DNA from: Symbiodinium sp. CCMP2592
Taxonomy: Eukaryota; Sar; Dinophyceae; Suessiales; Symbiodiniaceae
Reading direction: 5' to 3'
Assembly (NCBI GenBank): GCA_905221615.1
Contig: CAJNDT010004557.1
Span: forward strand, 558,001 to 622,000
DNA length: 64,000 bases
Shown here: piece after piece, positions 10,581-28,566 of the stretch
How positions within the stretch are numbered: the first letter of the stretch is position 1
Layout of the letters: each line of letters opens with the position of its first letter
Program-made: the position numbers and the translations under genes
The notes under the pieces: model-generated
What the model saw: only the letters and a program-made list of their open reading frames with translations
Databases searched by the model: none
What the model was told of the DNA's origin: nothing

Positions 10581-10953
10581 AGCAGTGACAGTCTTTGTAT
10601 GCGAGTCTGCGTGTGTGTAGGTATGTAAACAGGTAGATACGTGCGCACGCATGTATGCATGTGATAGTGTTGGAAGTGGAAGACCCAAAGACAGGGAAAG
10701 TTTGTGCTGATGTTTCCGTTTGCAAAGACACGATGATAAGGTCAAGCGACAGAGATTTTGAGAATGATGTCATCATTAGGTTTAACCGTTTCGTCAACTT
10801 TCGTCTGCGAATGATGATGATGACGATGATGATCATGATGATGCTGATGAAGCCCCACGGCTCACAGTCGAGGCCCGGGGTTCCTTTTCCGTTTGGCTTT
10901 GTGTTGTGTTTCGGGGTCGGGTTGGGGGGCTTCTTCTTCTTTGGTGAAGTTAG

Positions 10954-11670
10954 ATGCACAGCCATGGAAGCCCTCATGACGATGAAGCAGCATCTGCCGA
11001 GAGCGTTGAGAGCACGGACCGCACTCCTCGCGACTTTGTTCGTCATGGTAGTGTGCAACCCCACGAGCTTCTGCCGAAGGGACCACCGCCTCCTCAGCCA
11101 GTCAACCTGCCACCCAGAGAGCGGGAGGCTACAGCCGGCAGAGACAGTCCAGCTTGCCTTTCAGATGCATGTGAGGAAGCCGCAGCATCCAGTGAAGCCT
11201 CGCATCCGGAGTACCGCTGGCCGTTGCACCAGGGTGAACGCCTTGCTGGGCCCTTCCTGCCGAATGGACGATTTGCTGAGACGACTTCCTCCTCCTCCAG
11301 TTCATCCACTGACGACGACGATAGAGCAAACCCGCGCCGCGAGGCCGGCGACGATCTTGACTCTGACGCCGGGAGCTGGAGCAGTACCAGCATTGACCTG
11401 GGAGGAGCCCCGCTGGCTCGTGCAGTGGACTTCCTACTGGGCCAATACCGCAGCCAGCTGTCCGACTCCACCGAACTCTACACCAATCGTGAGGTGGGTG
11501 GAAAAGTGGGCGGCCTGCGCAGGCACTTGGCTGGCAAAAACTGGGCCTATGTCAGTGACGTGGCACGGCGATACCTGGAAGGCGAAGCACTCGCCTCCTG
11601 GAGAGAGTATGAGCAACGGGCCACACATGCAAGGAGGCCCAGCCGCCATGTCCGGGCTCGCCACGCCTGA
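10954..11670 (+). CDS. ORF1 of USP-bearing LINE (hypothetical, Pro motif)
   Basis: A 238-codon frame starting at the ATG at 10954. The N-terminal half is acidic and Ser-rich, with the motif GPPPPQPVNLP at about residues 44-54 and a long Ser/Asp run near residue 115. The C-terminal half (about residues 150-238) is mixed charged sequence with YLEGEALASWREYEQ. I recognise no RRM or zinc knuckle. Its position before ORF2 suggests an RNA-binding or assembly (gag-like) role, which is inference. The stop TGA at 11668 lies 20 bases past the ATG at 11648 that opens ORF2, so the two frames overlap by 23 nt. A similar Pro motif occurs in the 1,247-codon minus-strand ORF at 18064-21804. Confidence 0.6.
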   Translation: MHSHGSPHDDEAASAESVESTDRTPRDFVRHGSVQPHELLPKGPPPPQPVNLPPREREATAGRDSPACLSDACEEAAASSEASHPEYRWPLHQGERLAGPFLPNGRFAETTSSSSSSSTDDDDRANPRREAGDDLDSDAGSWSSTSIDLGGAPLARAVDFLLGQYRSQLSDSTELYTNREVGGKVGGLRRHLAGKNWAYVSDVARRYLEGEALASWREYEQRATHARRPSRHVRARHA

Positions 11671-14600
11671 TTTCGCTTGGCCTATTGGACGAGCAAGGAG
11701 CCATTGTGCTTATGCTTTCCAAATGCTAACCCGGTTACATGCCTTCGCCCCCACTAGGACCTCCCGACTCCGTAGACACACTCGACCCCACAAGAGTGTC
11801 AATCGCTGCATGCAAGCTGCAGCACCGCCGCCGAATGCAGGCCATCCTGCACCTTTCGGGCTGACTCCATCTCCTAGTCCTGTAAGCCACTCTAGGACCC
11901 CACAAACGTCTGGATTAAGCCGAGCCGGTCCCAAATCCGGCACCTGCCTCAGAAAGGTTCTAGTGATAAGCACCTTCGTAAGGGCAGGCGGGGCGAGGGT
12001 TTCGCCTGTATCCGCGAGAGGCGTGGGACCCACTGCCTCGGTAGTGGGGAAGCAGCGCGGCACCGCGCTTCTCGGATCGTCGGCAGCAGCCAGGCCGACA
12101 GCCATCCCATTTTCAGTTAAACGTTCCTTTCGTAGAGCTAGGCTTAGGGCCCATCAATCCCGTAATCAGGGTACTTGGTATAAGGGAGCCTGGCATACCA
12201 CTGAGACCCTAGGCCAACTGCCCCAACCTATCCCCAGCACTCATCGCTTAAGACGTTCCAATCGCGCCAGCAGGCGCCTTGACCACTTAGCCATAATGTC
12301 TTGGAATGCAGGAGGGCTCCCCTCCCACATGTATCAAGAATTCCTCGCATGGTGCGACATGCAGTGGCAACTTGACATCATTGTAGTCCAAGAAACACAT
12401 TGGCACGAAACAAGCGACTATGTGTCTGGGTCATGGCTAGTGTTACACTCGTCCGGTCGTGGACCGGACGTCGAATTTGGCAGGTGCTCTGGGCTCCTCT
12501 TCCTCATCAACCAGCGAGTCTTCAAGGACCCCAGAATCTTGGAAGTTATGCCAGGACGCCTAGCCCTCATTCAGATGTGTCACAAAACCAGTAACACACC
12601 GATTAGCCTCATTGGCGTGTACCAACATGTGTGGCGTAGCGGCCTAACCACGGCCAAGAATAAGGAACTACGACAAGGTCTATGGACACACCTTGATGGT
12701 CTGATCATGAAGACGCCTGCCCGGCATCATCTTATCATCAGTGGCGACTTCAACACCACCGTTCGCCCGGATCATCCCGTAGTAGGTCCCTGTGTGCCTG
12801 CCGACACGACTGACACCAATGGGGGAGACGAGCTTCAGATGATGCTTAGGACTCATAACCTCACGGTGCTTAACACCTGGCAGACCAAACACCCTAGTAC
12901 CTACTACGCTCCCACGGGTGAGACACAGATTGATTACGTCATCGTGCGACAGGATGCTGCTGTGGCCAAAGCCAAACAGGCAAGCCCAGATAGATCATTT
13001 CCAATTGGGGGTGGTAGGCTCACTGGGCATTTTCCCATCCGCGCTGAGCTACCCTTGCTCCCCATATACTTCTCACAAAAGCCGGGACACTCTAAACATG
13101 TGCAGGCTCTGGATGTCACCGCTCTGCAAGCAGCGGTACGAGCTCGCTCAACTGAGGCCCAGCTTCTGTGTCAGAACGTTTCGGCACGACTGTCTCAAAT
13201 CGACACATCCCAGATAGCTAGTGCACACGCCAGTGTAAACCGCATTCTTCTGGAGGAAGCGGCACTTGCATTTCCTCGTGAACCAAAGCCCGACCACCGG
13301 GTGTCGGCACAACCAGGCTTCCGGATCACCGCACGGGCTGTGTGGCAGACTTACCGACAGTTTAAGCGAGCAGGAGTGTGCACTTTCGGTCGCATCTTCG
13401 ACAAGTGGCGACTGGCCACCAGCTTCGCCAAGGCCTCCAAAGCCTTACGCCAGCAAAGTAAAGAGCTAAAGCGAGCCTTCTATGAGGAGCAAATCGGGGC
13501 AGCTGAACTGGCAGCCGCCCGAGGCGACCAACGAAGCCTGTTCCTCATAATCCGCCGACTCTCCCCTAAAACCCGAAAAATTGCAGGTCGCATGCGCGGG
13601 GAAGACGGCCACCTGCTCTCTCCTGCAGAGGAGATGGAGGCCATAATTCGCTATAGTAAAACTTTTGCTGCCCGACCTGATGAGCCACACATTGCACCCC
13701 TCACCGAGGACCTAGTAATCACTGACCAAGCCCTTCTGGACGAACTCAGCAAGCTAGGCATAGGGAAGGCAGTACCCAAGCACATTGCACCGGCAGCTGT
13801 TTGGCGCCTGTGTGCCACGTCCATCAGTCATGCTCTTGGCCAGGCATTGCGACAGCACTTGCGAAGCGGCTCCCAATGCCAGCTCGACGAGGACTGGAAG
13901 CATTCCCATGTCTCCTGGATCCCTAAACCATCGAAGGCACCTACATCGGTTGAAGCCCTACGCCCAATAGGACTCACTAGTCCCGCTAGTAAGGCCCTTG
14001 CCGGGTGTTTACGATCCTCCCTTGTCAGCAGCCTCCAGCCCCTTTTGCAGCAGCTACCACAGTTTGCTTACGCCAAGCAAAGAGGAACATTCGATGCCAT
14101 CATCCGCGCCCACCAGCACTTCGAGGCGGTCGCCGAAGTTCTGCAGCAAACCAAATGCAACCGATTCCAGCAACGAGTAGGCAAGAAGCAACGCCCCACC
14201 TCGGGGGGCCTTGGCCTCTCCTTAGACTTGTCCAAAGCATTTGATGGGGTCGACAGACCAGAGATTTACCGATCAATGTCTCGACATGGCGTCCCGAGCA
14301 GCACCATCACTCTTGTGCAGCAGCTGCATGCTGATGCCAGATACATCTTTCATAAGGGGGACCTCCGCGGCTCAGTCATCACATCAAATGGCATAAAGCA
14401 GGGATGTGTCATCGCTCCATTTCTATGGAACTACTTCTCTATATCCTTTCTCCTCTTGCTCCGCGACCAACGTAGTCAAGAGTGGATTGAAAGAGTTCTC
14501 TCTCTCTTTGCCGATGATGTATGGGGAGCCTGGGTTATCCGCGGACTCCCAGACCTTCGTGCTGCCATTGACGATGTAACCCTCATCCTTGAGACCCTAG

Positions 14601-16819
14601 AAACCCTGCATATGCAGATTAACTACGGTAAAACTGCCATCCTCCTCAGACTTGTAGGCAAAGATGCCAAGCAACAGCTCCGAGAACACACGTACATGCA
14701 CGCAGGCCAGTTGCATCTTCGACTCACCGTCCACGGACGGGAATGTGGCGTCCCGATCAAGGACCAACACCTGTATCTGGGAACGGTTGTTACTTACAAG
14801 CACCGACTTGATCGCAACATGACACATCGGATTCAGGCGAGCCAGGTCAGGTATCAGAGCCTTAGGAAGCTCTTGAATGGCAACCACCATCTCACTACCT
14901 CACATCGGTTGCGACTTTGGCAAGCCTGCATTTGTTCCAGTGTGATGTACTCACAGGCAGCTGTTGGTGTCACCGAAAGATCCTTACGGAAACTCACGGT
15001 GTACCTCACCAAGCAGCTTCGAGCCATCCTCAGGGTTCCAGCTCATATTACACACATCACCACAGGCGGTGTGTGGCAACAGGCTGGTTTGCCCATGCCA
15101 GGCTGGAGCATTCAGCACACACTCCGAGATTTCCTTCAAAAGCTTGAGCGTAAAGCCTTCACGGCTGCTGACATTACCACAGGCGATCAAGCTTTCCAGC
15201 ACCTCCGCCTGCTTGATACACGCCTCGATAAGCTACTGATGGAAGCCGCTGTGGATCTTGCAAAGGAGCCTCTAGGAGTCCCCCTAGTGAACTGTCCCCA
15301 TTGCAATGAAGCCTTTCATACTGAAAACTCCATGCGTATCCACAGTAAGCTCAAGCACGGGGACCTACCGGCACACAGCACCAGGACCCCCACGGCCTTC
15401 CGCCCCGAGCTGCACTCCTTAGCAGGCATGCCTGCATGCCGCCTGTGCTCTAGGCAGTTCTTTCGCTGGTCCCATCTTCGCATTCACATTGAAAGTGGAG
15501 CCTGCAGTCAGCTAGGAGGTGATAGCCTGGTTCGTGCCCCGATCCCTGATGAACAGGCAGCCGAGATCATCCAAGCACCTCCCGCGGTGCACAGAGGCAT
15601 TTTTGCAGATGAAAATGCGGCTCATACACCACTTGTAATGCGAGCGCAGTTTCAGCAGAAGCTTCATGATTGGGAGAGCTGGTTGAAAGAGCCCGCTGTC
15701 CGCCAAGAGCTCTCCAGTCACTGTGTGCTTTGCAACATGTGGATATCGAGCTACAAGCATGTCAAACAGCACTTCAACAAGGTTCATGCTGCACAGCATC
15801 CCACCTTAATGGACCGTGCTCTCAAGCTCAGCCTCACATTCAAATCGCATCTCACACGTGACCGCTCGTGCTTGTGGTGCCACCACAAGGTGGGAGCGCC
15901 AGGACGCCACGTCCAACAATGCACACCGCTGGTGCAACTGTGTCTAGCTGTCCTACACTGCCAGGACACACAAGATGTTCGGGGGGAACTACCAGATGGG
16001 CAACGACGAACTCGAGATCTTTGCCAGTTGTTGGGGGGGACCCGAGTACCAACCGCCTCCACCAAGGGGACCCAAGCGCCACCGACCGGAGCAGCAGCCT
16101 CACTGGGGACATCCCGGCTCCCAGATGACTCGACATCCGGGAGGCCAGCAACCACCTCCACATCGGGGACCGCCAGGACACTTCGGCAACTTTGGGTACC
16201 AGCCACAGCAGAATCGGCAAGACCAGCTACGACTCTTGACGCGAGTAGTCCTTCAACAGGAAGAAACCATCAGTCGTCTTCGTCAGGACAAGGTCTTCAT
16301 CCTCTTCATGAGGAACGAGACCGACGGAACGTTGGCCTCACTGATGAAAGTGGCTCGCGAGTGGAGGAATCGCAAATCCTCCGACGATCCGAAGCTGAAG
16401 TCATCTCTCAAAACACTGCTTCTTGCATCACTCCTCCAGGAGGTACTGAATCAGGCCCAGAAAGCTGTCGCCACGGCCGAGAACAAAACCAAGATGGTGA
16501 CCGCCGGCTGGATGACACAGGAAAGCGGCTGGACGTATCGAACCTGGCACCACTCCGAAAAGCGCCTCTGCCAGGACACCCAGAAGGACCCCCTGTCCCA
16601 CGACGAGGCAGTCAGAGTGTTGACCCAGCTCCAGAAGCACGTCACTGGGGATGTCATTCAGAAGTTCGCCTCCACGGTGGGATTGCAGAAGCTGGAGGAG
16701 CAGGGCTCGAACGTGGCCACGTTTCAGCTGGAGGTCTCTCTCCGAGGCAACATGGCTCAGGAGATCTACGACAACCTGTCCCGTCTGACAGGACCTCAGC
16801 CTGGTGGGGGTCTCCATGA
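11648..16819 (+). CDS. ORF2: AP-endonuclease-like + reverse transcriptase + four zinc fingers
   Basis: The open frame (part of one open from 10655) is taken from the ATG at 11648, which overlaps the end of ORF1. A basic linker precedes an exonuclease/endonuclease/phosphatase domain from about residue 217: MSWNAGG, VVQETHW, ISGDFNT, IDYVIV and a terminal TGHFPI where SDH is usual. Reverse transcriptase follows: WIPKPSKA and LRPIGLTSPASK, motif A LSLDLSKAFDGVD (about residue 858), motif B GIKQGCVIAPFLW, motif C FADD (about residue 953) and YLGTVV. C-terminal zinc fingers lie near residues 1216 (CPHC..H..H), 1262 (CRLC), 1358 (CVLC..H..H) and 1407 (CLWC..H..C). Together these make target-primed reverse transcription plausible. 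After about 15975 the frame is Ser/Thr/Gly-rich and overlaps ORF3, so the true C-terminus may be near there. The core has no stop or frameshift, so this part may be recently active. Confidence 0.85.
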   Translation: MSGLATPDFAWPIGRARSHCAYAFQMLTRLHAFAPTRTSRLRRHTRPHKSVNRCMQAAAPPPNAGHPAPFGLTPSPSPVSHSRTPQTSGLSRAGPKSGTCLRKVLVISTFVRAGGARVSPVSARGVGPTASVVGKQRGTALLGSSAAARPTAIPFSVKRSFRRARLRAHQSRNQGTWYKGAWHTTETLGQLPQPIPSTHRLRRSNRASRRLDHLAIMSWNAGGLPSHMYQEFLAWCDMQWQLDIIVVQETHWHETSDYVSGSWLVLHSSGRGPDVEFGRCSGLLFLINQRVFKDPRILEVMPGRLALIQMCHKTSNTPISLIGVYQHVWRSGLTTAKNKELRQGLWTHLDGLIMKTPARHHLIISGDFNTTVRPDHPVVGPCVPADTTDTNGGDELQMMLRTHNLTVLNTWQTKHPSTYYAPTGETQIDYVIVRQDAAVAKAKQASPDRSFPIGGGRLTGHFPIRAELPLLPIYFSQKPGHSKHVQALDVTALQAAVRARSTEAQLLCQNVSARLSQIDTSQIASAHASVNRILLEEAALAFPREPKPDHRVSAQPGFRITARAVWQTYRQFKRAGVCTFGRIFDKWRLATSFAKASKALRQQSKELKRAFYEEQIGAAELAAARGDQRSLFLIIRRLSPKTRKIAGRMRGEDGHLLSPAEEMEAIIRYSKTFAARPDEPHIAPLTEDLVITDQALLDELSKLGIGKAVPKHIAPAAVWRLCATSISHALGQALRQHLRSGSQCQLDEDWKHSHVSWIPKPSKAPTSVEALRPIGLTSPASKALAGCLRSSLVSSLQPLLQQLPQFAYAKQRGTFDAIIRAHQHFEAVAEVLQQTKCNRFQQRVGKKQRPTSGGLGLSLDLSKAFDGVDRPEIYRSMSRHGVPSSTITLVQQLHADARYIFHKGDLRGSVITSNGIKQGCVIAPFLWNYFSISFLLLLRDQRSQEWIERVLSLFADDVWGAWVIRGLPDLRAAIDDVTLILETLETLHMQINYGKTAILLRLVGKDAKQQLREHTYMHAGQLHLRLTVHGRECGVPIKDQHLYLGTVVTYKHRLDRNMTHRIQASQVRYQSLRKLLNGNHHLTTSHRLRLWQACICSSVMYSQAAVGVTERSLRKLTVYLTKQLRAILRVPAHITHITTGGVWQQAGLPMPGWSIQHTLRDFLQKLERKAFTAADITTGDQAFQHLRLLDTRLDKLLMEAAVDLAKEPLGVPLVNCPHCNEAFHTENSMRIHSKLKHGDLPAHSTRTPTAFRPELHSLAGMPACRLCSRQFFRWSHLRIHIESGACSQLGGDSLVRAPIPDEQAAEIIQAPPAVHRGIFADENAAHTPLVMRAQFQQKLHDWESWLKEPAVRQELSSHCVLCNMWISSYKHVKQHFNKVHAAQHPTLMDRALKLSLTFKSHLTRDRSCLWCHHKVGAPGRHVQQCTPLVQLCLAVLHCQDTQDVRGELPDGQRRTRDLCQLLGGTRVPTASTKGTQAPPTGAAASLGTSRLPDDSTSGRPATTSTSGTARTLRQLWVPATAESARPATTLDASSPSTGRNHQSSSSGQGLHPLHEERDRRNVGLTDESGSRVEESQILRRSEAEVISQNTASCITPPGGTESGPESCRHGREQNQDGDRRLDDTGKRLDVSNLAPLRKAPLPGHPEGPPVPRRGSQSVDPAPEARHWGCHSEVRLHGGIAEAGGAGLERGHVSAGGLSPRQHGSGDLRQPVPSDRTSAWWGSP

Positions 16820-16884
16820 AGAAGGACACCCTCCCGAGATCTGCCCTCGCGAAGCACCTGGCGAACCAGTTTTACGGCCACTGA
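15975..16884 (+). CDS. ORF3: Pro/Gln-rich then coiled-coil protein, end shifted by one base
   Basis: A second frame opens at the ATG at 15975, just after the last zinc finger of ORF2. Residues 20-80 are rich in Pro, Gly, Gln and His. Residues 80-270 are helical and charged (LLTRVVLQQEETISRL; VLTQLQKHVTGDVIQKFAS), with coiled-coil character. The frame stays open to 17087, but its sequence stops looking coding after about 16793. A natural continuation (VGVSMKKDTLPRSALAKHL) is then found in another frame, ending at the TGA at 16882-16884. That implies a one-base indel or programmed shift near 16793. I do not recognise the family. A structural or RNA-binding role in the retroelement particle is inference. 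Confidence 0.5.
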
Positions 16885-17980
16885 CGAAGCAGCTGGCCCC
16901 GTGGCCGCGCACGAGCCACCGCCTCTCGATCTGCCTACTGTTCGACTTAAAGGGGGCTCCAACAGCTGCTACATCAATTCATTCCTGTATAGTCTGTGTA
17001 CGGTACTTCGGCAGTGCGAACAACAGCATCTCCTACCTCAGGCCTTTTGGGAAACTTCAGAGCACCCGCGAGAAGCGATGCGTCTGATTGGGTTTAAACT
17101 TCTGGGCTGGTCGGAGCCTCGACGACAGCACGACGTAGCAGAGTTCATAGACCATTTACACCCTAAACTGGCCCGAACCACTTCCCTAGGTCATTGGGAG
17201 ACACGTGGCCAGACTGCGGAGGGTTTTCACCGCCAGGTCCAGGCATCTGCTGCTAAGTGCATACAACTTCCCACTGATCCCGCCAATCCCACACACAACG
17301 TGCAGGACCTGGTGCAACTGTGGCACCAGCAAGCGGAGCTGCAGGCTTTTGCTCAGGCACCGCTCTGGGCCTTTCTGCAACTACCTAGATTTCGGTATAA
17401 TGAGCGAGGTAAAGCCGAGAAACTCCTGCATCCCTACACCCTGCCCCACACAATCCGGCTTCCTGTTTCTGCATCAGCAGACTCACTGGCTGTCCAGTGG
17501 ATCTCGTATCGCACAACAGCGTGCATACAGCATCATGGAGCCCGCCCCACGGCAGGTCATTACACTACGGCGATCTTCAGAAAGTCCGACCTATGGCAGC
17601 TGGACGATGAAAAATCGTCCCGTATGCATCGGCCGAAACAGCTTGACCACTTGAGTACCAACATGTACATCATAGCCATTGCACGCAAACCCGACATAGT
17701 CCTGCAGCCGTCAGCCGATTCACAGTATATGCAGTCCCGACACCATGGAACCTCACCGCGACCCTCGCACTCTACGCGAAGAGGACCTCAACTGGATTGC
17801 GTCTCAGCTGTTTCTACTGAAGCTGCAAGTCTCGGGCATAGCGGAAGGGCTGGAGGCTCTACAGTGTGCCCACAATCGCCTCGAAGGCGCGCTACGATTG
17901 CTGAATGCGAGGATGGAACAAAGTACCGAAGCTGCAAAGCTTTTTTTTTTTTAAAGTGCAGTGGGGCCTTTTCTGCGTGA
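16820..17980 (+). CDS. Ubiquitin-specific-protease-like domain of the retroelement
   Basis: The frame is open from 16820 with no ATG before the catalytic cysteine. A GTG at 16901 is the first near-start, so expression may depend on a frameshift or coupling from upstream. The Cys box NSCYINSFLYSL starts at 16961 (Cys codon 16967-16969), matching the N-x-C-Y-x-N-S signature of USP/UBP peptidases (family C19). The His box AGHYTTAIF (His codon 17558-17560) is followed by WQLDDEKSS at about 17594, giving the usual His and Asp. Spacing of about 200 residues is short for a USP, so this is a minimal domain. Cysteine-protease removal of ubiquitin or ubiquitin-like proteins is known for the family; activity here is inferred. 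The region after about 17690 is low complexity and overlaps a small ORF in the next frame. The element is interrupted at 17941, so the last residues come from foreign sequence. Confidence 0.75.
   Translation, partial: RRTPSRDLPSRSTWRTSFTATDEAAGPVAAHEPPPLDLPTVRLKGGSNSCYINSFLYSLCTVLRQCEQQHLLPQAFWETSEHPREAMRLIGFKLLGWSEPRRQHDVAEFIDHLHPKLARTTSLGHWETRGQTAEGFHRQVQASAAKCIQLPTDPANPTHNVQDLVQLWHQQAELQAFAQAPLWAFLQLPRFRYNERGKAEKLLHPYTLPHTIRLPVSASADSLAVQWISYRTTACIQHHGARPTAGHYTTAIFRKSDLWQLDDEKSSRMHRPKQLDHLSTNMYIIAIARKPDIVLQPSADSQYMQSRHHGTSPRPSHSTRRGPQLDCVSAVSTEAASLGHSGRAGGSTVCPQSPRRRATIAECEDGTKYRSCKAFFFLKCSGAFSA
17745..17954 (+). CDS. Small coiled-coil ORF overlapping the USP frame (truncated)
   Basis: An ATG at 17745 opens a 69-codon frame, +1 relative to the USP frame. 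The core EEDLNWIASQLFLLKLQ, followed by ALQCAHNRLEGALRLL, is amphipathic and coiled-coil-like. The second element copy has a matching frame in the same relative position (28205-28474: GEEWIASQLYLQEIHLHKL, QQRHNKLQDEM). Conservation of the protein in an overlapping frame between diverged copies argues it is real. Its last residues (Lys-Leu-Phe-Phe-Phe) are read from the 12-T tract at 17941, so the native C-terminus has been lost to the insertion. Confidence 0.6.
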   Translation: MEPHRDPRTLREEDLNWIASQLFLLKLQVSGIAEGLEALQCAHNRLEGALRLLNARMEQSTEAAKLFFF

Positions 17981-18010
17981 GGTCCAGCCGTTAGCCGGCT
18001 TGCACTTTAA
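17941..18010 (-). other. A-tract plus terminal hairpin of the minus-strand element
   Basis: On the minus strand, the inverted repeat TTAAAGTGCA/TGCACTTTAA (18001-18010 and 17951-17960, 10 bp perfect, 40-nt loop) is followed at once by twelve A residues (17952-17941). The hairpin starts 54 nt after the ORF stop at 18064. A stem-loop directly abutting an A-tract is a common form of LINE/SINE 3' terminus. It lies exactly where the plus-strand element loses similarity to its relative. Confidence 0.65.
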
Positions 18011-18063
18011 TAGGTCATCATTTAGACCCATTGAAAGAAAGAAAACCAAAGCCCTCAGTCTCA

Positions 18064-21000
18064 CTAGTCCACCACCTCGAGACCTCGACGACGTACAGAG
18101 AGGACAGGTTCATGACGGTCGGCGGGGCTACCAGTAGACGCAGTTGCCGTACTCGCCGAGTGCATTGTGGACAAACCAGTACCAGACGACCCATCAGCAT
18201 CACGGCTACGACTGCGGTCACGATCACGAAGACGTCGATCATCAAGAGCTGCATGAGGTCCGCGAGAAGCAGCATCGTCAGGTAGACCTTGTTCCCTTCG
18301 AGTGGAACGTGATTCATGTGGTACTGCACCAACGACATCGCCTAAACCACCTTGAGGGAAGAGGACAGGAGGTGGTCGTGGAGCGCGTAGTCGTCGCCGA
18401 TGACGTGGAAGACGGCGATCTGGTGGTCCAGGTGGTAGCATCCCATCTGGGATGTTAGTCGGGGCCGCATTTTCATCTGTCTGGATGAGATAGAGAACTT
18501 GGTCATCCTCCGAGGGCCACCAACCTTCTGGAATTGCGTGACCATCTTGCACATGAAGTGCTCTCGCATTGTGCCTCCAAGCACGGCGCCGTAGTCCCAC
18601 TATGGTGCGTGGTTCCATGTGAGGCAGGCTGTTCCAGAGGCTCCGGAGATCTTCAGGGAGGCCTGGTTGGAGCAAAGCTGCGGCTGTGGTGCTGACTTGG
18701 GTGGTACCAGATGATGATGCACCCATGCCGAAGTTCGCCTCCTGGTTCACAACACCCCAGATGTGCATTTCCATCGTCGGAGAATTGAACACCATGGAGT
18801 TCGCGGGCACTGGCATCCACGTGAGTGCCTCCTCAATGGCCACTCCAATGAGGCGTCCCAAGTGGTTAAGACGTCGCTGTCTCGCCTGAAGCCTATGGAG
18901 GACATCGACAATGTCCGCCACGCTGCCATAGACAAGTTCGCGATTAACAGCATCACGAACAACATCCTCCGGAGACAGAGTCGTCGTAGAGGTCGAAGTT
19001 GACGTAGAACACCAACCACCAGCCAGTGCAAAGTCATCCCAGCAGGACCCAGGGGACAGAGAGGAGTCAGGCAGCAGGGGCATACACGACACCAGAGTTG
19101 AGGTAGAAGTCGAGGTCCATCCCACACCAGCAGAAGAAGACCACAACTGCACAAGAGCACCCATGTCACCCACCATGTCCTCCTCCAGGTTGAAGGTAGT
19201 CGAAGATAAGGTAGTGGAGCTGGCTGTCGATTCAGTCCAGATGCCCAGTAGGGCTCCATTGAGAGCCTCCTCCACAGAGCCGTGGACAGGGACCGGCACC
19301 GGCTGTCCTGGACGAAGATGGCGAGGCAAGTTCACCGGGATGGGCGGCGGAGGTCCGTTGGGAGGTTCATCCGGTCTCGCAGGTAGAACACAAACCAGTT
19401 GTCCATGTTCATTTAGTGCCACTTCGCTGTTCAATGACGGTGCCTCGTGGGAGGATGCGGCAGAGCGGCGGCTACTCGTTGACACGACTCCTCGGCTCCG
19501 GCTGCGGCTCCTTGTACGGTCACTTCCACCTGACGAGGACGAAGAAGGCGCCACCAGATCAGTACCAGCACTCGGTTCCTGTCGCACAGTCGACCCAGGG
19601 GTCGTAACCGGGTCCAAGGTGTCAGGTACTGTGTTACCTTGTGGTCCTTCGCCTGGTTGGAGACGGACCTGAAGGTTCCTGTCGAAGCACCCCACAAAGG
19701 TTCCTGCGAGATTCCTGACCCAATTGAAGAGCTGCCATCGTTGCATTTCTTCAGCTGGAACTCTTTGGATCGGTAAATAGCCACGAGGAAGAAGTCGACG
19801 TACAAGCACACCGTAGATGGACTCGATCGTAGCCATGCCATCCTCCACCCGTTCCAACAGGTGCCCCAGGGCCCAACGAGCTTCCGGACCTAGATCTTGG
19901 TCGTTGTGAGTGTCAAGGGCCTGCAGAAACTGCTCCAGACGATCCACATCAGCGCGAGGAATCCCTGCTTCTTGCAAAGTCGCACGTTCAGACCCAGTCA
20001 TCTGCATCAGGGAGATGACATCAGGTAGTGCCGGTTCAACCACAGGCTCAAGACCAAAGTGTGGAAGCACTGGGCTGGTGGAAGAGGAAGTGGTCGACGA
20101 GGACGTGGTGGAGCAAGACGGCGTAGTACAAGACCAGTCTTCCCAAGATTGCCATGTCCCCCATGTAGAAGAAGACCACGCAGGAGACCAAGAAGAGGGT
20201 GCTGTAGACCATGTTGACGACACCCCATTTTGGTTCCACCAGTCGTGATGCCAGGATTGCCCAGACCAGGGATCCCAGTCCAGTTCCCAGTTTCCATCTT
20301 CGGACCCATGTGTAGGCTCCCCCCAAGAAGAGGTTTCCTGTGACTTGGCAGTCTGGTCTTCAGTCTCCAAGGCCTTGCCTGTGAAGGCTGCCATGATCTT
20401 GGGGTCGACAACGGGCTCCTCTTTCTGCACCTCTGTCCCAGCACCCAGTCCAGCTTGTTGAAGAGCTCGGGCTTCCTTTTCTCTAGCGTATCGAACCAGC
20501 CAGGCAGGTTTCCAAGAGCCCTCCATATACGAGACCATCCTCTGGTGTTTCCGAGCTGCACGCTGCGGTCCCATACCTCCTCGGTGCTGCCTCTGCTCAG
20601 TGACTGTCCGTGCACGAGAGTGCCAAACACCATGTCGCCAAAATCCTACTGAAGCATCCGTCGCCGAAGAGTCAGGGCCTGAGCTTTCATCGTCCCCACC
20701 AGAAGTAGAACTACCAGCAGTAGTAGAAGCCTCTGGTTGGATGCTTCCAGGACTGGCCCACACCTGGAAGGAGTCACCATAGAAACTCGTAGCCTTAACC
20801 ACAGGAAGGCCATCAACTTCACCCACCCCGACCACCGTGAAAGGTTCAGCATGATCGAGTTGAGGATCATGCGATTCTGGAGCAGCTTCTCGTCGCTCTC
20901 GTGCACGGTTTCTCACAGAGCCGTCAGGGTGATGCCACCGATCCAGTCCACTGCGTGTACGACCAAAACGCGAGGTCACCCCAACATTTGTCTCCATGTT

Positions 21001-21804
21001 CGAGGAGGACGAAGCGCTCGAGGAAGCAGTGTCATCATTTCTGGTCAGCAAGGAGGCGGGGTCGCGTCCAGGGAGACCAGCAGGAGGGACACCTCCGCGA
21101 AGTACACGGTGATCACGGACGAGGTCTAGCCAATCCACTGCCGCGTCTCTGTCCACAGGGGGTCCTTCACCACTGTCACCAGGGGCACCATGTCCTTCTG
21201 CTGCTTCACCAAAAGGGAGAGGAAGGTCCTCAGGTATCGGAGCAAGACCCCCGAAGTCAACCTCCTCACCATCCATGTGAAGGACACCCGTAGCCAGGGC
21301 CCAGCAGATCTCTGCATCACTCTCAATCCGGTTGTTCGCTCCACTGGATGCAACCGGCATGCATGAAGAGGACGGACACGACCAATCCAAAGAACTCGAC
21401 GAGGGGAGGGAGGAGGTCCACGGCCACGGCGTCGATGTGTGTAAAGGTGACGAACTCCACGTAGAACTCGAGCAGGTCCAGGAAGAAGACGATGAGGAAG
21501 CAGATGACTGGGAAACCTCACCCTCAGCTGCCAGAACAGGGTCACCGACAGCAACAGGACCAACCGCGGAGGCAGAGGAAGAAGTCCACGGTGTAGAAGA
21601 GTCATCCCATCCAGGCGCAGTAGCCGGAGAAGACGTCGAAAGGTTCTCGTCATCCCATACTGCAGCCATGTGGGCTGCAATTTCCTCCTGAGTCCAAGGT
21701 CGACAGCGATCTTCCGGTGGATCAGTTCCCCGTTGAACACAGCGACCACCAAGGGCAGCAGCCAACCACACCAGGAGACGCGCGAGGGGCAGCAGGCGCG
21801 CCAT
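18064..21804 (-). CDS. Large Ser/Trp-rich ORF with signal-like N-terminus (unknown)
   Basis: An uninterrupted frame of about 1,247 codons when started at the ATG at 21804; it is open further, to 21999. The first residues, MARLLPLARLLVWLAAALGG, look like a signal peptide or membrane anchor. Acidic sequence follows, then long Ser/Trp/Thr runs (for example near 21560-21420 and 20260-20080). There are two Arg/Ser tracts: RTRSRSRSR at about 19500 and RDRDRSRSRDADG near the C-terminus. A Pro motif, GPPPPIPVNLP, lies at about 19350. More globular stretches include LPIQRVPAEEMQRWQLFNWV and LVYGSVADIVDVLHRLQARQ. No catalytic motif is recognised. The Pro motif and the nearby LVCVLP/HELLP context resemble ORF1 of the plus-strand LINE, suggesting a gag-like relation. 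It starts 252 nt after the RT stop. The intact length argues for recent function. Confidence 0.55.
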   Translation of the reverse strand: MARLLPLARLLVWLAAALGGRCVQRGTDPPEDRCRPWTQEEIAAHMAAVWDDENLSTSSPATAPGWDDSSTPWTSSSASAVGPVAVGDPVLAAEGEVSQSSASSSSSSWTCSSSTWSSSPLHTSTPWPWTSSLPSSSSLDWSCPSSSCMPVASSGANNRIESDAEICWALATGVLHMDGEEVDFGGLAPIPEDLPLPFGEAAEGHGAPGDSGEGPPVDRDAAVDWLDLVRDHRVLRGGVPPAGLPGRDPASLLTRNDDTASSSASSSSNMETNVGVTSRFGRTRSGLDRWHHPDGSVRNRARERREAAPESHDPQLDHAEPFTVVGVGEVDGLPVVKATSFYGDSFQVWASPGSIQPEASTTAGSSTSGGDDESSGPDSSATDASVGFWRHGVWHSRARTVTEQRQHRGGMGPQRAARKHQRMVSYMEGSWKPAWLVRYAREKEARALQQAGLGAGTEVQKEEPVVDPKIMAAFTGKALETEDQTAKSQETSSWGEPTHGSEDGNWELDWDPWSGQSWHHDWWNQNGVSSTWSTAPSSWSPAWSSSTWGTWQSWEDWSCTTPSCSTTSSSTTSSSTSPVLPHFGLEPVVEPALPDVISLMQMTGSERATLQEAGIPRADVDRLEQFLQALDTHNDQDLGPEARWALGHLLERVEDGMATIESIYGVLVRRLLPRGYLPIQRVPAEEMQRWQLFNWVRNLAGTFVGCFDRNLQVRLQPGEGPQGNTVPDTLDPVTTPGSTVRQEPSAGTDLVAPSSSSSGGSDRTRSRSRSRGVVSTSSRRSAASSHEAPSLNSEVALNEHGQLVCVLPARPDEPPNGPPPPIPVNLPRHLRPGQPVPVPVHGSVEEALNGALLGIWTESTASSTTLSSTTFNLEEDMVGDMGALVQLWSSSAGVGWTSTSTSTLVSCMPLLPDSSLSPGSCWDDFALAGGWCSTSTSTSTTTLSPEDVVRDAVNRELVYGSVADIVDVLHRLQARQRRLNHLGRLIGVAIEEALTWMPVPANSMVFNSPTMEMHIWGVVNQEANFGMGASSSGTTQVSTTAAALLQPGLPEDLRSLWNSLPHMEPRTIVGLRRRAWRHNARALHVQDGHAIPEGWWPSEDDQVLYLIQTDENAAPTNIPDGMLPPGPPDRRLPRHRRRLRAPRPPPVLFPQGGLGDVVGAVPHESRSTRREQGLPDDAASRGPHAALDDRRLRDRDRSRSRDADGSSGTGLSTMHSASTATASTGSPADRHEPVLSVRRRGLEVVD

Positions 21805-22055
21805 GAGAAGAGCAGGTCGTAGGAGACGAAAAGGGCGTAAGTTTTCACACCTAAGCCGAAGAGGCTCAAGAAAGACAAAGTGTAAGTTGAAACTTGCGAA
21901 AGAGATCTTCGTGCATGACATCCGGCATCCGAAAAGAGCAGCACAGCATGACAATGTGTGTACATGGTTCTCAACATACAGGAAGAGTGGCACCACCAAG
22001 ATGGATCTTCAACTCAAAGACAGAGCTTCATTACTCCAACTAGGCAGGAAGCCAT

Positions 22056-23690
22056 TCAACATCTAATCGAGAGCTGTCGTCCGCTGGCCCAGCGTACGTC
22101 CCATTCTTCAATATATTTTCCACGCGCAAGAGACCAGCTCGCACGATCTTGGGCTAGAACATGCCATAGGGGTCCACAGCTGTGAGACAGCTGCCGTTCT
22201 GCATTGGAAGCATAGAACTGACACGGATGGCGCATGGAGGTGCTGGGACTAAGCTGTTGCTGTTCACGCCACCAAAAAGTGTTTCGCCAGAGAACTGCTC
22301 TCATTGGAGCACAAGCTTTGGCAACCCCTCGGACGACCTCATAGCGACGAGACCAATGCCCGTGGAGGGTATGTTGGAGCGTAAGCACCTTCTCAGACCA
22401 CCGAGGAATTTGGTTCGAATGCAACCACACACGAACGAAGCGCATGGATCTTTGATTCCATTGCACCCAGCTCTCAGAGGAAGCTCGCCTGAGGCCAAAA
22501 GCGGCTCTGCATGTATGCTGTTGCAAAACATTCAGAGCGTGAAGGTCGTCCTTTGCCCAGTGCAATGCCCCCGCTGTCCAGCTGAACTGGGATTCGATCA
22601 AGGTCCTCATGATCGAAACCTTGTGCAGCCATGCACCAGGGGCGCGAAGAAGATCTTTATGTGCAGCAGCAGCATCCCGCGCACGCCCAATCAGTTCCTT
22701 TGCTTGCTCGGATGCATCACGTGACAGAGAGAACGAGAGCCCTAGCACCTTGAGCGAATCACCCGCAGATGCAATGCAGTGGGCGTTCTCCCCTACGGTC
22801 GCGCGGCGAGGACCAACATAATGTTCATTGGCAACGATCTTCGTCTTCTCCTTTGCTAACGTAAGGCCAGCTTGCCGAAGACATCGATCAACCACCCCAA
22901 TCCTTTTGCATAGGCGACCAAAGTTGGTCTCGACGATGAAGACGTCGTCCTGATAAAATAGCAGGTCAATGTCCACACCGGCAATGGGAGAACCAAGATC
23001 ACCCCAACGTTTGCAATGAACAAGCTCGGAAAGGAGTGAATCAACCACAAGTCCGAACAACTCGGCACTCTCGGGAGCACCTTGTTTAATACCATTATCA
23101 GGACGAAGACGGACTTCTTTGCCTCCAGGAGCTTTGCCGACGATCTCATGAACAGAGAGTTGAGCAAGTAGATACCGTAGTTCAAAGCTCACCCCCTTGC
23201 GTTGCAGCCGAGCCCGAAGAAGTTCAGCGACTTTTGCTCTGTCGACTTTATCAAAAGCGCCTGCAACATCGAGCTTGCAAAGAATGAGTGGGTGGCACCA
23301 CTCTTTCGAGACATCACGAAGGCGGGACAGGCAACCGATGAGGTCTGCCGCTTGGCGACCCTTGCCGCAACAACTAATCTTCGACCCCTGCCTCATCAGC
23401 GGAAGCGCCCTGGAGCAGACCAGACGATTGACGAGCTAGGCAGAGGACACGCAAATAGGGCGGAGATCAGAGGGTTGGCTAGGGAGACGACATTTAGCAA
23501 GAAGCGCAAGAAAGCTGCGCTCCCAGCTGGCCGGTAGCTCCCTTGTCTTGACAATGTGATTGATCAGGCTCAGTAGGCGCGGCCCAAGAACATCATGGTC
23601 AGCACATTCACGGAGAAGATGGACGCCAATACCGTCAGGCCCGACAGCACTACGACACTTCATCCCCTGCAACTCAACCCGCACGTCCAA
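22056..23690 (-). pseudogene. Reverse transcriptase of minus-strand LINE, broken
   Basis: The RT core is read in one frame from about 23690 to 22056. It begins with CRSAVGPDGIGVHLLREC and PASWERSFLALLAK, then LRPICVSSA followed by an in-frame TAG at about 23436. It resumes with motif A LILCKLDVAGAFDKVD, motif B DNGIKQGAPESAELFG, motif C LLFYQDDVFIVE and LTLAKEKTKIVAN. The C-terminus has the GHWSRRYEVV element and Trp-rich WRNTFWWREQQ common to LINE tails. It is shifted by one base from the endonuclease frame (around 23690). One frameshift and one nonsense codon make this copy inactive unless recoded. YQDD in place of FADD/YADD, and QGAPES in place of QGxPLSP, are atypical for LINEs. Confidence 0.8.
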
Positions 23691-25027
23691 GATGGTGAAG
23701 GGACAAAATTATCGTCCTCAGCAGCAGCCTGAATAAGACCAGCAAGCTGGTCTTCCCATTCGGAGGCCGTTCTCAAACTGCAAGTCATCTTTTCACGGAG
23801 ATGAGCAGTGATCTCATGTGCGAGATCGACGGAACTATTCTCAGCAAGCATGTTCCCCCACCATCCTCGCCTACGCTTGCGTTCGTTCTGCAACTGTCGA
23901 TACTGATCCCAGTCACCATTGAGGATCTTGGAAAGACGTGATTGAGTCCATAGACGTTTGTGGGCACGACGAAGCTTGTGTACCTTCTTCCACTCACGCG
24001 CACAACCCGAGGAACGAGCAGCACTGATGGCACCCTTCACCTCATCACCATCTCTGTACTGCTGTGAGGCACGGGGCTTCGTACAGCTGTTCGCCAGTTC
24101 AATGAGATCGTCTTCGTCAACAATCTCGACATCAGGGAGATCACGTACAACCCACCGAGGTCGCGAGTCATTTCCCCACACAGTTTTAGTGGGTCCACCA
24201 GCAATCAAGATGTCCCCTACGACAATAGCATGATCCGAACCGATGATGTGCCTCCGATCCGGCTCAATGTGGAGGGGGCATACATGGAGGAGCCTAGAAA
24301 AGATCATGTCAATTTGTCGGCCACGCCTTGTGGAATCACGAGGGAAATGGGTAGCAGCGTTTCGATCAGCAAGGCGGGGAGCTATAGGATGGACCCCTTG
24401 TTGTAGCATCTCGTGTAGGAGGGCCTCAAGATTGTTAGAGTTCGTCCCGATATTGAGAAGGCCATTTTCCTCAAGGTCCCAGTGAGGTACTTCATTGGCA
24501 TCGACACCACAAAGCACTGGCAGGTGTCGAAATCGACGGGGGCAATGACCAGCGAATTCTTGAGCTGCAGCTTGATAGACGGCCGTGGTAACTCCAGTAT
24601 GGCAATGGGCACACCCCAGAACCACACGTCCAAGACCAAGAACCCTCGCCACCATCCAAAGACCTCGCTCTGATGCAGTTTTCCAAGTGACCGAGTCAAA
24701 CTTATCCAAGGCAATTCCAATCCCCGTGCCTCTCCACTGGCGAGCGTCCCGGAATGTCACCCAATGAAATTCATCCGTGTCAAAGGAGCTCCACCCACAA
24801 GTGTCACGAGCGATCTCTTGCGCAAATACAATGTCACAGTCTTTACAAGCGACATCGAGGAGACTAACATGCTGCCCACCAAGGTTCCAGGTACACGATC
24901 TACCCCATCTGCATGTTGCACACGGACGAGCCGAAGTCACCCCACTTTCCTCAGGAATAGCAGAGTCACCCCGAACCTGGTGAAGCGAATTCTGATCATC
25001 ACGGGTGAAACCGTCGAGCCGCTGACG
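23660..25027 (-). CDS. AP-endonuclease-like domain of minus-strand LINE
   Basis: The open frame begins directly after the ORF1 stop codon (TGA at 25030-25028) in the same frame and runs to 23660. Endonuclease motifs are in order: WNLGG, VFAQEIARD, LCGVDANEVPH, RQIDMIFSRLL and IGSDHAIVVGD. These give the Asn, Glu, Asp/Asn, Asp and SDH residues of exonuclease/endonuclease/phosphatase enzymes that nick the LINE target site. A basic, helical linker follows (KKVHKLRRAHKRLWTQ). No ATG precedes the first catalytic motif, and the first near-start is a GTG at 24940. UGA readthrough from ORF1 would give a natural fusion. The frame shifts by one base into the RT near 23690-23660. Confidence 0.8.
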   Translation of the reverse strand, partial: RQRLDGFTRDDQNSLHQVRGDSAIPEESGVTSARPCATCRWGRSCTWNLGGQHVSLLDVACKDCDIVFAQEIARDTCGWSSFDTDEFHWVTFRDARQWRGTGIGIALDKFDSVTWKTASERGLWMVARVLGLGRVVLGCAHCHTGVTTAVYQAAAQEFAGHCPRRFRHLPVLCGVDANEVPHWDLEENGLLNIGTNSNNLEALLHEMLQQGVHPIAPRLADRNAATHFPRDSTRRGRQIDMIFSRLLHVCPLHIEPDRRHIIGSDHAIVVGDILIAGGPTKTVWGNDSRPRWVVRDLPDVEIVDEDDLIELANSCTKPRASQQYRDGDEVKGAISAARSSGCAREWKKVHKLRRAHKRLWTQSRLSKILNGDWDQYRQLQNERKRRRGWWGNMLAENSSVDLAHEITAHLREKMTCSLRTASEWEDQLAGLIQAAAEDDNFVPSPSWTCGLSCRG

Positions 25028-26362
25028 TCACAGCTCGCGCTCAAAGGCGCTCTTGGAATCGTCCGTCGAGCACCCTGCAATTCTAGCCACTGCGGAGACG
25101 TTCACCCAGCCGCCGCTCATAACGACAAACTCGTCCTGGCATTTCGGCTGACGGTGAGTGGTGCTTTCAAGTTTTTCACTGCCACACCACACGGTCCCCA
25201 TGTTCCAGTCACAGTCGTAGGAACTGATCTGGTCGTTCACCCCTTGGTTCTGCTCCTGGTTGTCCTTCACGAGCGCGATAGCGACCCTCCTAATCATGCT
25301 GACGTGGGAACTTCGAAGGCGAGCATTCTTGCTCTTCACAAACGATGCCCAAAGGGTCTTAGTTTCACCAGACGCAGAAGTGCTCGGCAGAGAATGCTTA
25401 ATTCGTCCCAGTGCTCGAATGAGTTCCCACATACGGCCTTTCAAGGTCTGGGGCGATTCACCCTCCCGAAGCTTGAACCGGAGGAGTCCAACTGAACGAC
25501 GAGGTCCAAAGATCTGCAGCTTGTCATTGTCAATGAGGCTCGCAACTTCAGGCATCTGCAAGATCACACCAGCCTCCTCTTCGATGACCGAGCGTTTTGT
25601 GTCCTGAAGCCACCCTCCAATCACAAGGGTTCTTTTATCCTCCTCAGGGATGAAGTCACCCTTATCGTCCTGCGGATTTCCCCCAGAGGGACGAGATGCT
25701 TCTTTTGGATCACCACCCAAGGGACCAGGTGAACGACGAGCCTGCAGGTAGTCACTCCACGGATCCACTCCTGGAGGGTTAAGCACAGCTCCTGGTCGCG
25801 TATCACTGGGGGCAGGGCGGGAGTTCAACTCATCAATCTTGACCTGCATCTTCTGGACGTCGGAGGTGAGATCATCCAAGGCTTTCGTCTGTACTTGCAG
25901 GTCCTTTTTCTGCTGGTGATGGTCTTTCTCAAGTACTCTCGTGTGTGTCTGCAAATTGGTGATTTCGAAACTGCTCTTCTTTTGTTCTTGTTCGACACAG
26001 TCAAGACGCCCCTTGAACGAATCCCATGCAGTCCTCATCTCGCAAACATGTCCAAGAAGAAGCTCACGGATCTCACGGGCGGTAAGGGGTTTATCTCCAG
26101 AAAGTGAGGGTCTCTTTGATGGGCTGTCTTCGTCGTCGGAGTCAGGGACAGGGCGAACTCTAGGGTCACACTTAGACGCAGACGACTCACCCCTCTTCCT
26201 CTTTTCAAGCTTTGCGGGCATTTCAGCATCATCACCATCACCCTCGGAAACCTCTTCCTCAGCGAGCTCCGTGGGGGAACCAACTCGTTCAACACCATCA
26301 CCAGCCTCTTCAATCTGCATGGCAGAGAGCAGCCCAGGCTGCGTCTCCAAGTTGTCCGTCAT
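25028..26362 (-). CDS. ORF1p of minus-strand LINE: coiled coil + RRM-like domain
   Basis: A 444-codon frame with ATG at 26362. The first 90 residues are acidic, with a basic KLEKRKRGES patch. Residues about 100-185 have heptad-like coiled-coil sequence (FEITNLQTHTRVLEKDHHQQ; VQKMQVKIDELNS). A Pro/Gly-rich hinge follows. A folded domain then begins at about residue 243 with RTLVIGGWLQDT and SVGLLRFKLREGE, resembling the RRM and C-terminal part of L1 ORF1 proteins. In that family the protein trimerises and binds the element RNA; that role here is inferred from architecture. The stop is a single UGA followed by C, after which the same frame continues into the endonuclease. The start ATG overlaps the stop of a short upstream frame (ATGA). 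Confidence 0.75.
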   Translation of the reverse strand: MTDNLETQPGLLSAMQIEEAGDGVERVGSPTELAEEEVSEGDGDDAEMPAKLEKRKRGESSASKCDPRVRPVPDSDDEDSPSKRPSLSGDKPLTAREIRELLLGHVCEMRTAWDSFKGRLDCVEQEQKKSSFEITNLQTHTRVLEKDHHQQKKDLQVQTKALDDLTSDVQKMQVKIDELNSRPAPSDTRPGAVLNPPGVDPWSDYLQARRSPGPLGGDPKEASRPSGGNPQDDKGDFIPEEDKRTLVIGGWLQDTKRSVIEEEAGVILQMPEVASLIDNDKLQIFGPRRSVGLLRFKLREGESPQTLKGRMWELIRALGRIKHSLPSTSASGETKTLWASFVKSKNARLRSSHVSMIRRVAIALVKDNQEQNQGVNDQISSYDCDWNMGTVWCGSEKLESTTHRQPKCQDEFVVMSGGWVNVSAVARIAGCSTDDSKSAFEREL

Positions 26363-26571
26363 GACGAGGAGAGCACGTCGAAGTCAAAGTCGAACAAGAC
26401 AAAGTAGCCAACGAAGTCGACCCACTCCAGTCCACCAGCAGGTGAACAGGCCACCCAGACGTCGTCTCCCTTTTTGGCAAAAGTCACAGCAATGAGGTCG
26501 ATGTCCTCCCAACCAGAACCCAAATGTGCACGCTCGACGTCCGAAAGAGAAAGAGAGAGAAGAGGAGCCAA
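26359..26571 (-). CDS. Possible short leader ORF upstream of ORF1
   Basis: An open frame of 70 codons ends at the TGA at 26361-26359, overlapping the ORF1 ATG as ATGA. The stretch GWEDIDLIAVTFAKKGDDVW looks protein-like. It has no ATG; the frame opens after a TGA with a TTG. It could be the 3' part of a longer spliced or decayed ORF0, or chance. Confidence 0.25.
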   Translation of the reverse strand: MAPLLSLSLSDVERAHLGSGWEDIDLIAVTFAKKGDDVWVACSPAGGLEWVDFVGYFVLFDFDFDVLSSS

Positions 26572-26599
26572 AGTTCACCCCAACAAAGACCACGAACTA

Positions 26600-27107
26600 C
26601 GTCCCACGTTCACCTTGCACGGCAAGAACTCGCCGAGGGCGCGGATGCCGAACTCGCCCAAGACCGTAACACCCCAGCGAAGAAGAAGAACAGAATCAGG
26701 TAGAGGAAGAATTTCCGATCCGACTTCGCGAAGGACACCAGGGAGCCCACGTGCGCCAAAGGAGCGAGCGGAGGCAGGAGCAGGGGCACTGGAACTAGAC
26801 GGAGCTGGCTAGGCCTCGAGCACAACAGCTTGTAGCCATTGAGAGCTTTATCATACTGGATTCTCTTGACGACTAGCCGGCTGCTCACGGAGACTGATGC
26901 CAAGCATACAGTCCATATTGTTTAAGGCGTTTCGGCGCACCCCTTTTGACTCTCCTCCTCTCTCTCTCTCTCTCTCTCTCTCCTCTCTCCTCTGCTCTCC
27001 TTTTGCCGACGGCCCATAAGAGGCATTCGTGCCTAAGCCATGTTCCAATGGCCGGCTCAATGAGCTGAAAGGCGCGCGCAGGACGAATCATTTCGCCGCG
27101 TGGGGAA
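26600..27107. other. Gene-free stretch with CT microsatellite
   Basis: This is the probable 5' leader of the minus-strand element, then a (CT)n run at about 26958-26982, then the unique flank of the trinucleotide array. Minus-strand frames here (for example 26610-26903) are not convincing. Confidence 0.45.
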
Positions 27108-27110
27108 GAA
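26998..27110. repeat. Flanking repeat unit, copy 1 (leads into microsatellite)
   Basis: It contains AGGCATTCGTGCC near 27021 and CGCGTGGGGAAGAA near 27097, directly followed by a GATG/CTG array. The same order and spacing recur at 28740-28860. Confidence 0.55.
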
Positions 27111-27169
27111 GATGATGCTGATGCTGATGCTGCTGGTGATGCTGATGCTGATGCTGATGCTGCCGCTGA

Positions 27170-27486: not shown

Positions 27487-27487
27487 A

Positions 27488-28521: not shown

Positions 28522-28532
28522 GGGCTGAGCTC

Positions 28533-28566
28533 GTTTTTCCCTTTCTGAGCTCGCAAAGGGAAAAAC
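28533..28566. other. Perfect 12-bp stem-loop after the USP stop codon
   Basis: GTTTTTCCCTTT (28533-28544) pairs with AAAGGGAAAAAC (28555-28566) across a 10-nt loop. It begins 12 nt after the stop at 28519-28521. CTGAGCTCG is also directly repeated at 28525 and 28545. It may be a 3' end recognised by the reverse transcriptase or a processing signal. Confidence 0.7.

Follow-up and report, generated by a model that had tools for sequence, protein, structure and literature searches.

The genome of Symbiodinium sp. CCMP2592, named S. tridacnidorum in the available text of PMC8045281, harbors a family of APE-endonuclease LINEs whose ORF2 protein is predicted to end in a ubiquitin-specific protease (USP) of peptidase family C19. 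As judged from the sequences, the fusion of the LINE reverse transcriptase (RT) with a USP is almost certainly real. The predicted domain order of endonuclease, RT, zinc fingers, linker, and USP is contained in one frame in many copies. The extended reading, according to which the USP of this old family protects the ORF2 protein in cis, has about an even chance of being correct. The starting point was a 64,000-nucleotide stretch of the genome, hereafter the window, in which a first-pass annotation had proposed a LINE carrying a USP. That reading stands, but the annotation had overlooked a further USP box (QHDVAEF), the overlap with a +1 ORF, a nested insertion, and the broken state of the window copy. 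The purposes that it suggested for the USP (shielding the element's proteins from turnover, processing a ubiquitin-like fusion, or countering host control) stay conjectural.

The USP ORF of the window (16820..17980, plus strand, 386 amino acids) was characterized using Pfam, a profile search, a structure model, and motifs. The first-pass annotation had given this range for the LINE with its USP-like module; a USP is present there, but the C19 domain proper extends from approximately 16961 to 17690, and the rest of the ORF is formed by a linker and a tail. The Cys box NSCYINS (16961-16981, catalytic Cys codon at 16967), the His box AGHYT (17552-17566, His codon at 17558), and the W-x-L-D-D segment within WQLDDE (17594-17611, Asp at 17603/17606) are located where they had been reported and lie in a single frame. 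QHDVAEF is positioned at 17126-17146, and QLPRF at 17378-17392 is in the same frame as the other USP boxes. The Cys, QxD, and His boxes and the Asp follow one another in the order of family C19. The proposed C19 (USP/UBP) identity is borne out by a highly significant match of the ORF to Pfam UCH PF00443 (E=3.8e-13; 50.1 bits with a cut-off of 23.9; residues 57-276). Chance occurrence of the motif was ruled out by this match and by shuffling of the USP ORF, which yielded the three-box pattern in order in 0 of 20,000 shuffles. A USP profile of 23 sequences has 77 matches in the PDB at E≤0.001, and the 60 of these that were listed are all USP/UBP enzymes. The AlphaFold model of the USP (pLDDT 82.6, pTM 0.85) has a USP fold, with USP46/USP12 as the top structural matches and numerous USPs tied within 1 Z. 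The sequence LRLxGG, which precedes the Cys box in the window and in relative P0006, was considered as a ubiquitin-like cleavage site and rejected; other lineages have LxNPxN there, indicating an ordinary lead into the Cys box.

Upstream of the USP on the same strand, in agreement with the first-pass annotation, is frame A (10637..16819, plus strand), which corresponds to ORF2 and is 2060 codons long from stop to stop in the ORF list. It encodes an APE-type endonuclease, an RT, and zinc fingers, followed by a linker toward the USP. The endonuclease (12296..12976, plus strand; MSWNAGG... GDFNTT...) matches Exo_endo_phos_2 at 12680-12976 with E=4.8e-4, which is below the Pfam cut-off. The endonuclease score exceeds the cut-off in relatives P0006, P0020, P0026, and P0035, and in P0006 it does so for both Exo_endo_phos and Exo_endo_phos_2. 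The RT (13919..14674, plus strand; FADD at 14507) matches RVT_1 above the cut-off (E=1.5e-15), and the RT part of the window is a 100% match to a database protein named Pol from Symbiodinium sp. CCMP2592. The four CxxC...H zinc-finger-like motifs (15293..15925, plus strand; at 15293, 15437, 15722, and 15869) match zf-C2H2_4 with E=0.0012, below the cut-off in the window copy, and their Cys/His columns are nearly invariant in the alignment of relatives. The APE endonuclease followed by an RT within a single ORF, together with 5'-truncated copies and a common 3' terminus with unrelated flanks, identifies the element as an APE-type LINE. The N-terminal part of frame A is overlapped by an ORF1-like frame (10954..11670, plus strand, 238 amino acids from its ATG) that has no Pfam match; in the alignment with copies C5085, C5005, C5373, and C162, its C-terminal half is similar to the frame at the same position.

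The window copy is a broken, dead member of the USP-LINE family. An in-frame TGA at 16817-16819 splits the RT from the USP, and the frame changes near 16790 and, according to manual frame reading, at approximately 16880. Copy C2223 aligns to window positions 11518-16885 and 16949-17942 and then to 26845-27162, and the jump from 17942 to 26845 indicates that a minus-strand retroelement of approximately 8.9 kb (17943..26844) was inserted into the LINE and split it. The nested element has an RVT_1 match at 22056-23435 (minus strand, E=3.2e-12) and, downstream of it, a 1,314-codon ORF (18064-22008) without a Pfam match. AGCTTT is present at both junctions of the nested element, and poly-T is present at the left one. 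The 3' end of the window LINE copy (26845..27111, plus strand) terminates in GCCGCGTGGGGAAGAAG at 27095-27111. The only two exact plus-strand sites of ATGATGCTGATG in the window, 10838-10849 and 27112-27123, are a possible target duplication, located within simple repeats and dependent on a provisional 5' end of the LINE near 10850.

A second USP-LINE copy, which belongs to another lineage and is 5'-truncated and frame-broken, lies at 27521..28852 (plus strand); it contains a partial USP (27521-28158) and a 3' tail 90% like that of locus L023. Simple repeats of the GATGCT/CTG type occupy 27110-27490 between the 3' parts of the two USP-LINEs, and several other USP-LINE copies end beside GAT-rich repeats, as if these were preferred targets. 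A 3' tail of approximately 120 nucleotides (GCATACGTGCC... GGCCG... CGCTGGAC... GCG..GAAGAAG) is conserved across lineages; it was found in the window (26990-27111 and 28711-28852) and in L023, L027, L029, L037, and L039, and is perhaps a region recognized by the RT. Several groups of near-identical copies (98-99%) have a common 3' terminus ending in GAAGAAG, beyond which the flanks differ, and this combination points to recent retrotransposition of relatives of the window copy.

Other copies in which the USP frame adjoins the same RT lineage, as implied by the first-pass reading, were found repeatedly. Profile searches of the window's own genome (1.098 Gb), in which only the best candidates were scored, produced at least 142 USP, at least 106 RT, and at least 138 matches of ORF B, the +1 ORF described below. 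In the adjacency count, which used 85 typed USP matches of the 142 listed and 70 typed RT matches of the 106 listed, 49 USPs are preceded on the same strand by an RT at a distance of at most 10 kb, and the RT-to-USP spacing is 1.46-2.26 kb in 47 of these pairs. The RT and USP share a frame in 24 of the 49 pairs, whereas 14 and 11 pairs are in the other two frames. The 25 pairs that are out of frame, together with the displacement of ORF B in 6 of 30 loci, indicate that many copies are frame-damaged. All 142 USP, 130 of 138 ORF B, and 57 of 106 RT matches were typed in the frame-pair count; since 36 low-scoring RT matches were never typed and, of the 13 dropped between the two counts, 12 lack a listed USP in their vicinity, the 49 of 57 RT matches with a USP do not represent a rate. 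For six copies, the greater part of the sequence was read: C5085, C5005, and C5373 each consist of one ORF, of 2,348, 2,402, and 2,138 codons, respectively, and the window copy, C2223, and C162 are broken.

The fusion is also found in protein sequences. PF00443 and PF00078 occur together in 17 of 64 protein RT matches, and a LINE-USP profile detects the USP in 86 proteins of a set of 176, some of which are partial, come from early-ending gene models, or belong to a few distant outgroups. An RT DD motif is located upstream of the USP in 83 proteins, at a median distance of 797 amino acids in the same chain. The absence of a USP from the other 90 proteins probably reflects, in part, fragments and gene models that stop short of it. 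Named protein matches belong to Symbiodinium species, except for RTs of the distant outgroups Leptosia and Cordylochernes. EukProt entry Skav221349, which we take to be from Fugacium kawagutii, is a weak relative that bears a USP. A search of viral contigs with P0010, in a set that possibly leaves the window's own and near genomes outside, gave nine pattern stretches, none of them related. At C405:110262-111461 there is an RT copy 99% identical to that of the window with no listed USP behind it, perhaps truncated or unlisted. Gene models P0014 (2-hydroxyacid dehydrogenase-like 1), P0048 (hsp-3), and P0121 (atxn2) match the RT region of the LINE and are probable chimaeric annotations. USP-LINEs seed many UCH and reverse-transcriptase matches and chimaeric gene models in dinoflagellate annotations.

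Sequence trees show the RT and the USP to have descended in parallel. The trees of 22 proteins have the same main clades, and the Mantel correlation of the distances is 0.88, a value that none of 9,999 permutations reached (highest 0.79, n=22); the trees are quick ones, and long deep branches that meet among the deepest rows help the correlation. In the deepest USP-bearing arms, RT identity to the window falls to approximately 27-31%. The simplest reading of these sequences is a single capture of the USP before the family diversified. The genome also contains other UCH loci (at least 148 UCH matches were scored, LINE copies counted in), which could suggest that a host USP gene or retrocopy came to lie beside a LINE by chance. 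Against this stand the fixed spacing, the one-chain fusions, and the agreement of the RT and USP trees. Furthermore, in a quick tree search, one branch (SH-aLRT 97) separates 28 LINE USPs from the other UCH loci, represented by just five putative host genes. Recurrence of the RT-USP arrangement rules out a host gene adjoining the LINE by chance, and we give the chance neighborhood next to no weight. In contigs C994, C2844, and C1987, UCH matches with open frames of 593-1,870 amino acids are arranged in series, spaced approximately 17.5 kb apart in C994 and 13 kb in C1987. Loci L004 and L008 (open frames of 1,631 and 1,813 amino acids) have UCH near the start of the frame and no upstream ORF B.

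Purifying selection, as measured by codon comparisons, has kept the USP and its predicted catalytic residues intact. In the best 30 of the 142 USP matches listed in the genome, hereafter the 30 loci, the USP domain has no in-frame stop, and the oxyanion Asn, the Cys, and the QHD, GHY, and DD residues are invariant. The dN/dS ratio is 0.07-0.25 for 19 of the 22 closest USP pairs; it is 0.10 at dS 0.44 for the window and C2223, and 0.11 at dS 0.73 and 0.09 at dS 0.87 for further pairs. The remaining three values are one zero, one undefined for an identical pair, and 2.4 for L029/L032, a near-identical segmental duplicate with a handful of changes. Among 71 nearly full domains of the 176-protein set, strict patterns recognize the Cys box in 47, GHY/F in 66, and the following D/E-D in 59. 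The patterns may simply miss distant members, or these may be inactive. It is quite likely that the tethered USP is an active deubiquitinase.

The linker between the RT and the USP overlaps ORF B (15948..16790, plus strand, first ATG at 15975), which is +1 relative to frame A and was analyzed by homology, selection, and stop counts. The ORF B homologues, present upstream of the USP in all 30 loci, are at USP frame +1 in 24 of them (the exceptions are L012, L020, L026, L030, L032, and L036); the same holds for 59 of the 71 B-USP pairs among typed matches. The matches in the genome typically have their own open frame of approximately 290-430 amino acids. The protein is predicted to form a long helix and a globular part (pLDDT 67.8), and a Foldseek search for its fold gave 40 rows, none of them at E≤0.001 (best 0.41). 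Nucleotide comparisons indicate that ORF B is under amino-acid selection: four pairs with third-position differences of 30-35% differ by 6-9% in the first and 2-5% in the second positions. Frame A is offset by one base from ORF B, so that most third-position changes in ORF B alter an amino acid of frame A; the amino-acid sequence is thus not what is conserved there.

Over the span homologous to ORF B, frame A of the 30 loci has 0 stops in 7,369 codons, while ORF B has 6 and the third frame 298. The count includes L012 and L032, in which ORF B is in two or three pieces; frame A was taken as the frame before ORF B, which in the six displaced loci was set by ORF B and not by the frame of the USP. 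Controls with the same frame relation have 274 stops in 5,363 codons of the endonuclease-RT-zinc finger region of five copies, and 408 stops in 7,656 codons of the USP of the 30 loci. The possibility that the overlap is open by codon usage alone was ruled out by these control rates and by codon resampling of ORF B, which predicts 140 stops, as opposed to 0 observed, in 20 loci; 21 loci had been picked for an undisturbed frame relation, and L034 was left out owing to a stop in ORF B. The linker frame A, in the sequences compared, is kept stop-free while the overlapping ORF B bears amino-acid constraint. From the zero stops in comparison with the controls, we infer that frame A is translated through ORF B and that the link of the RT to the USP is selected. 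The frame of the USP is open across all 1,500 upstream bases that were fetched in 15 of the 30 loci.

Alternatively, the USP might be made separately, from an internal start or by trans-splicing of a shorter RNA, with the endonuclease and RT joined to ORF B by a frameshift. Annotated gene models often cross from frame A to ORF B, as though through small introns, which are themselves inferred, and the homology of ORF B begins immediately after the last zinc finger; both would agree with separate production. However, nothing would then keep frame A stop-free, and the control rate predicts approximately 375 stops where 7,369 codons have none. Separate production of the USP is thus very improbable, and we consider it likely that a polyprotein frame of 2,000-2,400 codons is held open through a constrained +1 gene, and in half of the 30 loci also through a third, small one, to tether a working USP. 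The fusion spans lineages with RT identity of approximately 30%, and the stop-count test of the overlap covers the 30 nearest loci.

ORF B itself is presumably made from the same RNA, by its own start or a frameshift. Its E-A-x-I-F-like motif was found in 18 of 23 loci and is preceded by an ATG 4-15 residues before it in 14 of the 18; L027, L028, L029, and L034 have no ATG at this distance. A small +1 frame, ORF C (17700..17954, plus strand; DLNWIASQL...), overlaps the tail of the USP and is cut by the nested insertion in the window. Its motif is present in 15 of the 30 loci, always in frame +1. The support for ORF C and for the ORF1-like overlap is less firm than that for ORF B.

The proposed mechanism begins with ribosomes that would read frame A across the overlap, producing a single polyprotein of 2,000-2,400 amino acids with a tethered deubiquitinase. 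The USP could remove ubiquitin in cis from its own ORF2 protein or ribonucleoprotein, and the rare, large polymerase may thereby be shielded from proteasomal turnover until its RNA is copied. In the available sections of PMC5695851, the deubiquitinase of TYMV acts on the viral polymerase and may affect its stability. By analogy, self-protection of the ORF2 protein or ribonucleoprotein is the function that we find most plausible, and about half of our expectation rests on it.

In the same fusion, the tethered USP might instead act on chromatin or repair proteins, such as ubiquitylated histone or PCNA- or FANCD2-like substrates, and ease target-primed reverse transcription. The USP is in the same chain as the polymerase and endonuclease and would be held at them, a repair role was suggested for the OTU and Ulp1 proteases of Ginger elements in the available part of PMC2836005, and the chromatin and repair deubiquitinases Ubp8, USP1, and USP7 are among the structural neighbors of the model, alongside many others. 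Given that USP46/USP12 are the top folds, with many tied within 1 Z, and that closeness of fold names no substrate, we regard a chromatin or repair target as a tentative minority option. A role of the USP in processing the polyprotein, or in deconjugating another ubiquitin-like protein, is improbable. We know of no USP that acts as a sequence-specific endopeptidase, and a Pfam scan of the window ORFs and of 14 relatives finds no ubiquitin-like domain. Nevertheless, the close structural matches of the model include USP18 with ISG15, and TYMV PRO/DUB combines processing with deubiquitylation (PMC5695851, in part). Shielding of the element's own polymerase remains the preferred explanation.

The USP family joins the enzymes carried by LINEs and raises the testable question of whether retrotransposons must counteract the ubiquitin system for their polymerase to survive. 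As an example of overlapping coding in a mobile element of eukaryotes, the linker is unusually clear: one of its frames stays open under little amino-acid constraint. If the proposal is true, overlapping-gene compression and a built-in deubiquitinase are combined in one eukaryotic retrotransposon. LINEs with accessory enzymes were known already; the enzyme family, its position, and the coding arrangement are new. Neither a LINE with a USP nor such a frame overlap was found in the open PMC literature, outside of which are subscription papers, preprints, and Repbase, and the main text of PMC6338049, on accessory domains of retrotransposons, contains no ubiquitin, OTU, or Ulp1.

Deconjugating proteases are present in several other mobile elements, described here from the available portions of the sources. 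NeSL/Utopia LINEs (PMC4640811) are likewise non-LTR elements with a deconjugating cysteine protease, but theirs is Ulp1-like, N-terminal, and found in some members, and their endonuclease is restriction-like, whereas the USP-LINE has a C-terminal C19 domain and an APE-type endonuclease; the window element does not have the features that define NeSL/Utopia. Ginger1 (PMC2836005) resembles the USP-LINE in that a mobile-element enzyme carries a C-terminal ubiquitin or SUMO protease, OTU or Ulp1, and a Trichomonas transposase with Peptidase C19 from the same source is one C19 precedent. Unlike the USP-LINE, both are DNA transposons without an RT, and the available text mentions no overlap of frames. 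Helentrons (PMC4067079) also combine an AP endonuclease with a cysteine protease, there OTU-like, but they are rolling-circle DNA elements with the OTU in an additional ORF. TYMV PRO/DUB (PMC5695851) provides a deubiquitinase acting on its own polymerase, as in the mechanism proposed for the USP-LINE; it is an RNA virus enzyme with an OTU fold and a Cys-His dyad, and the relation is one of analogy alone.

The SymbioLINE-Dnmt elements are Symbiodinium LINEs with a cytosine methyltransferase (PMC5890265, in part). The word ubiquitin is absent from the main text of that paper, and Pfam detects no DNA methylase PF00145, the hallmark of SymbioLINE-Dnmt, in the window frames 10637-16819 and 10954-11670. 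The two families share the host genus in its old sense, Exo_endo_phos and RVT_1 domains, and an accessory enzyme under purifying selection. According to the portion of PMC5890265 available, SymbioLINE-Dnmt lacks a poly-A tail and has conserved untranslated regions; the USP-LINE likewise has conserved 3' ends without poly-A. In contrast to the C19 domain at the C-terminus of ORF2 in the USP-LINE, the methyltransferase of SymbioLINE-Dnmt is encoded in the upstream ORF1.
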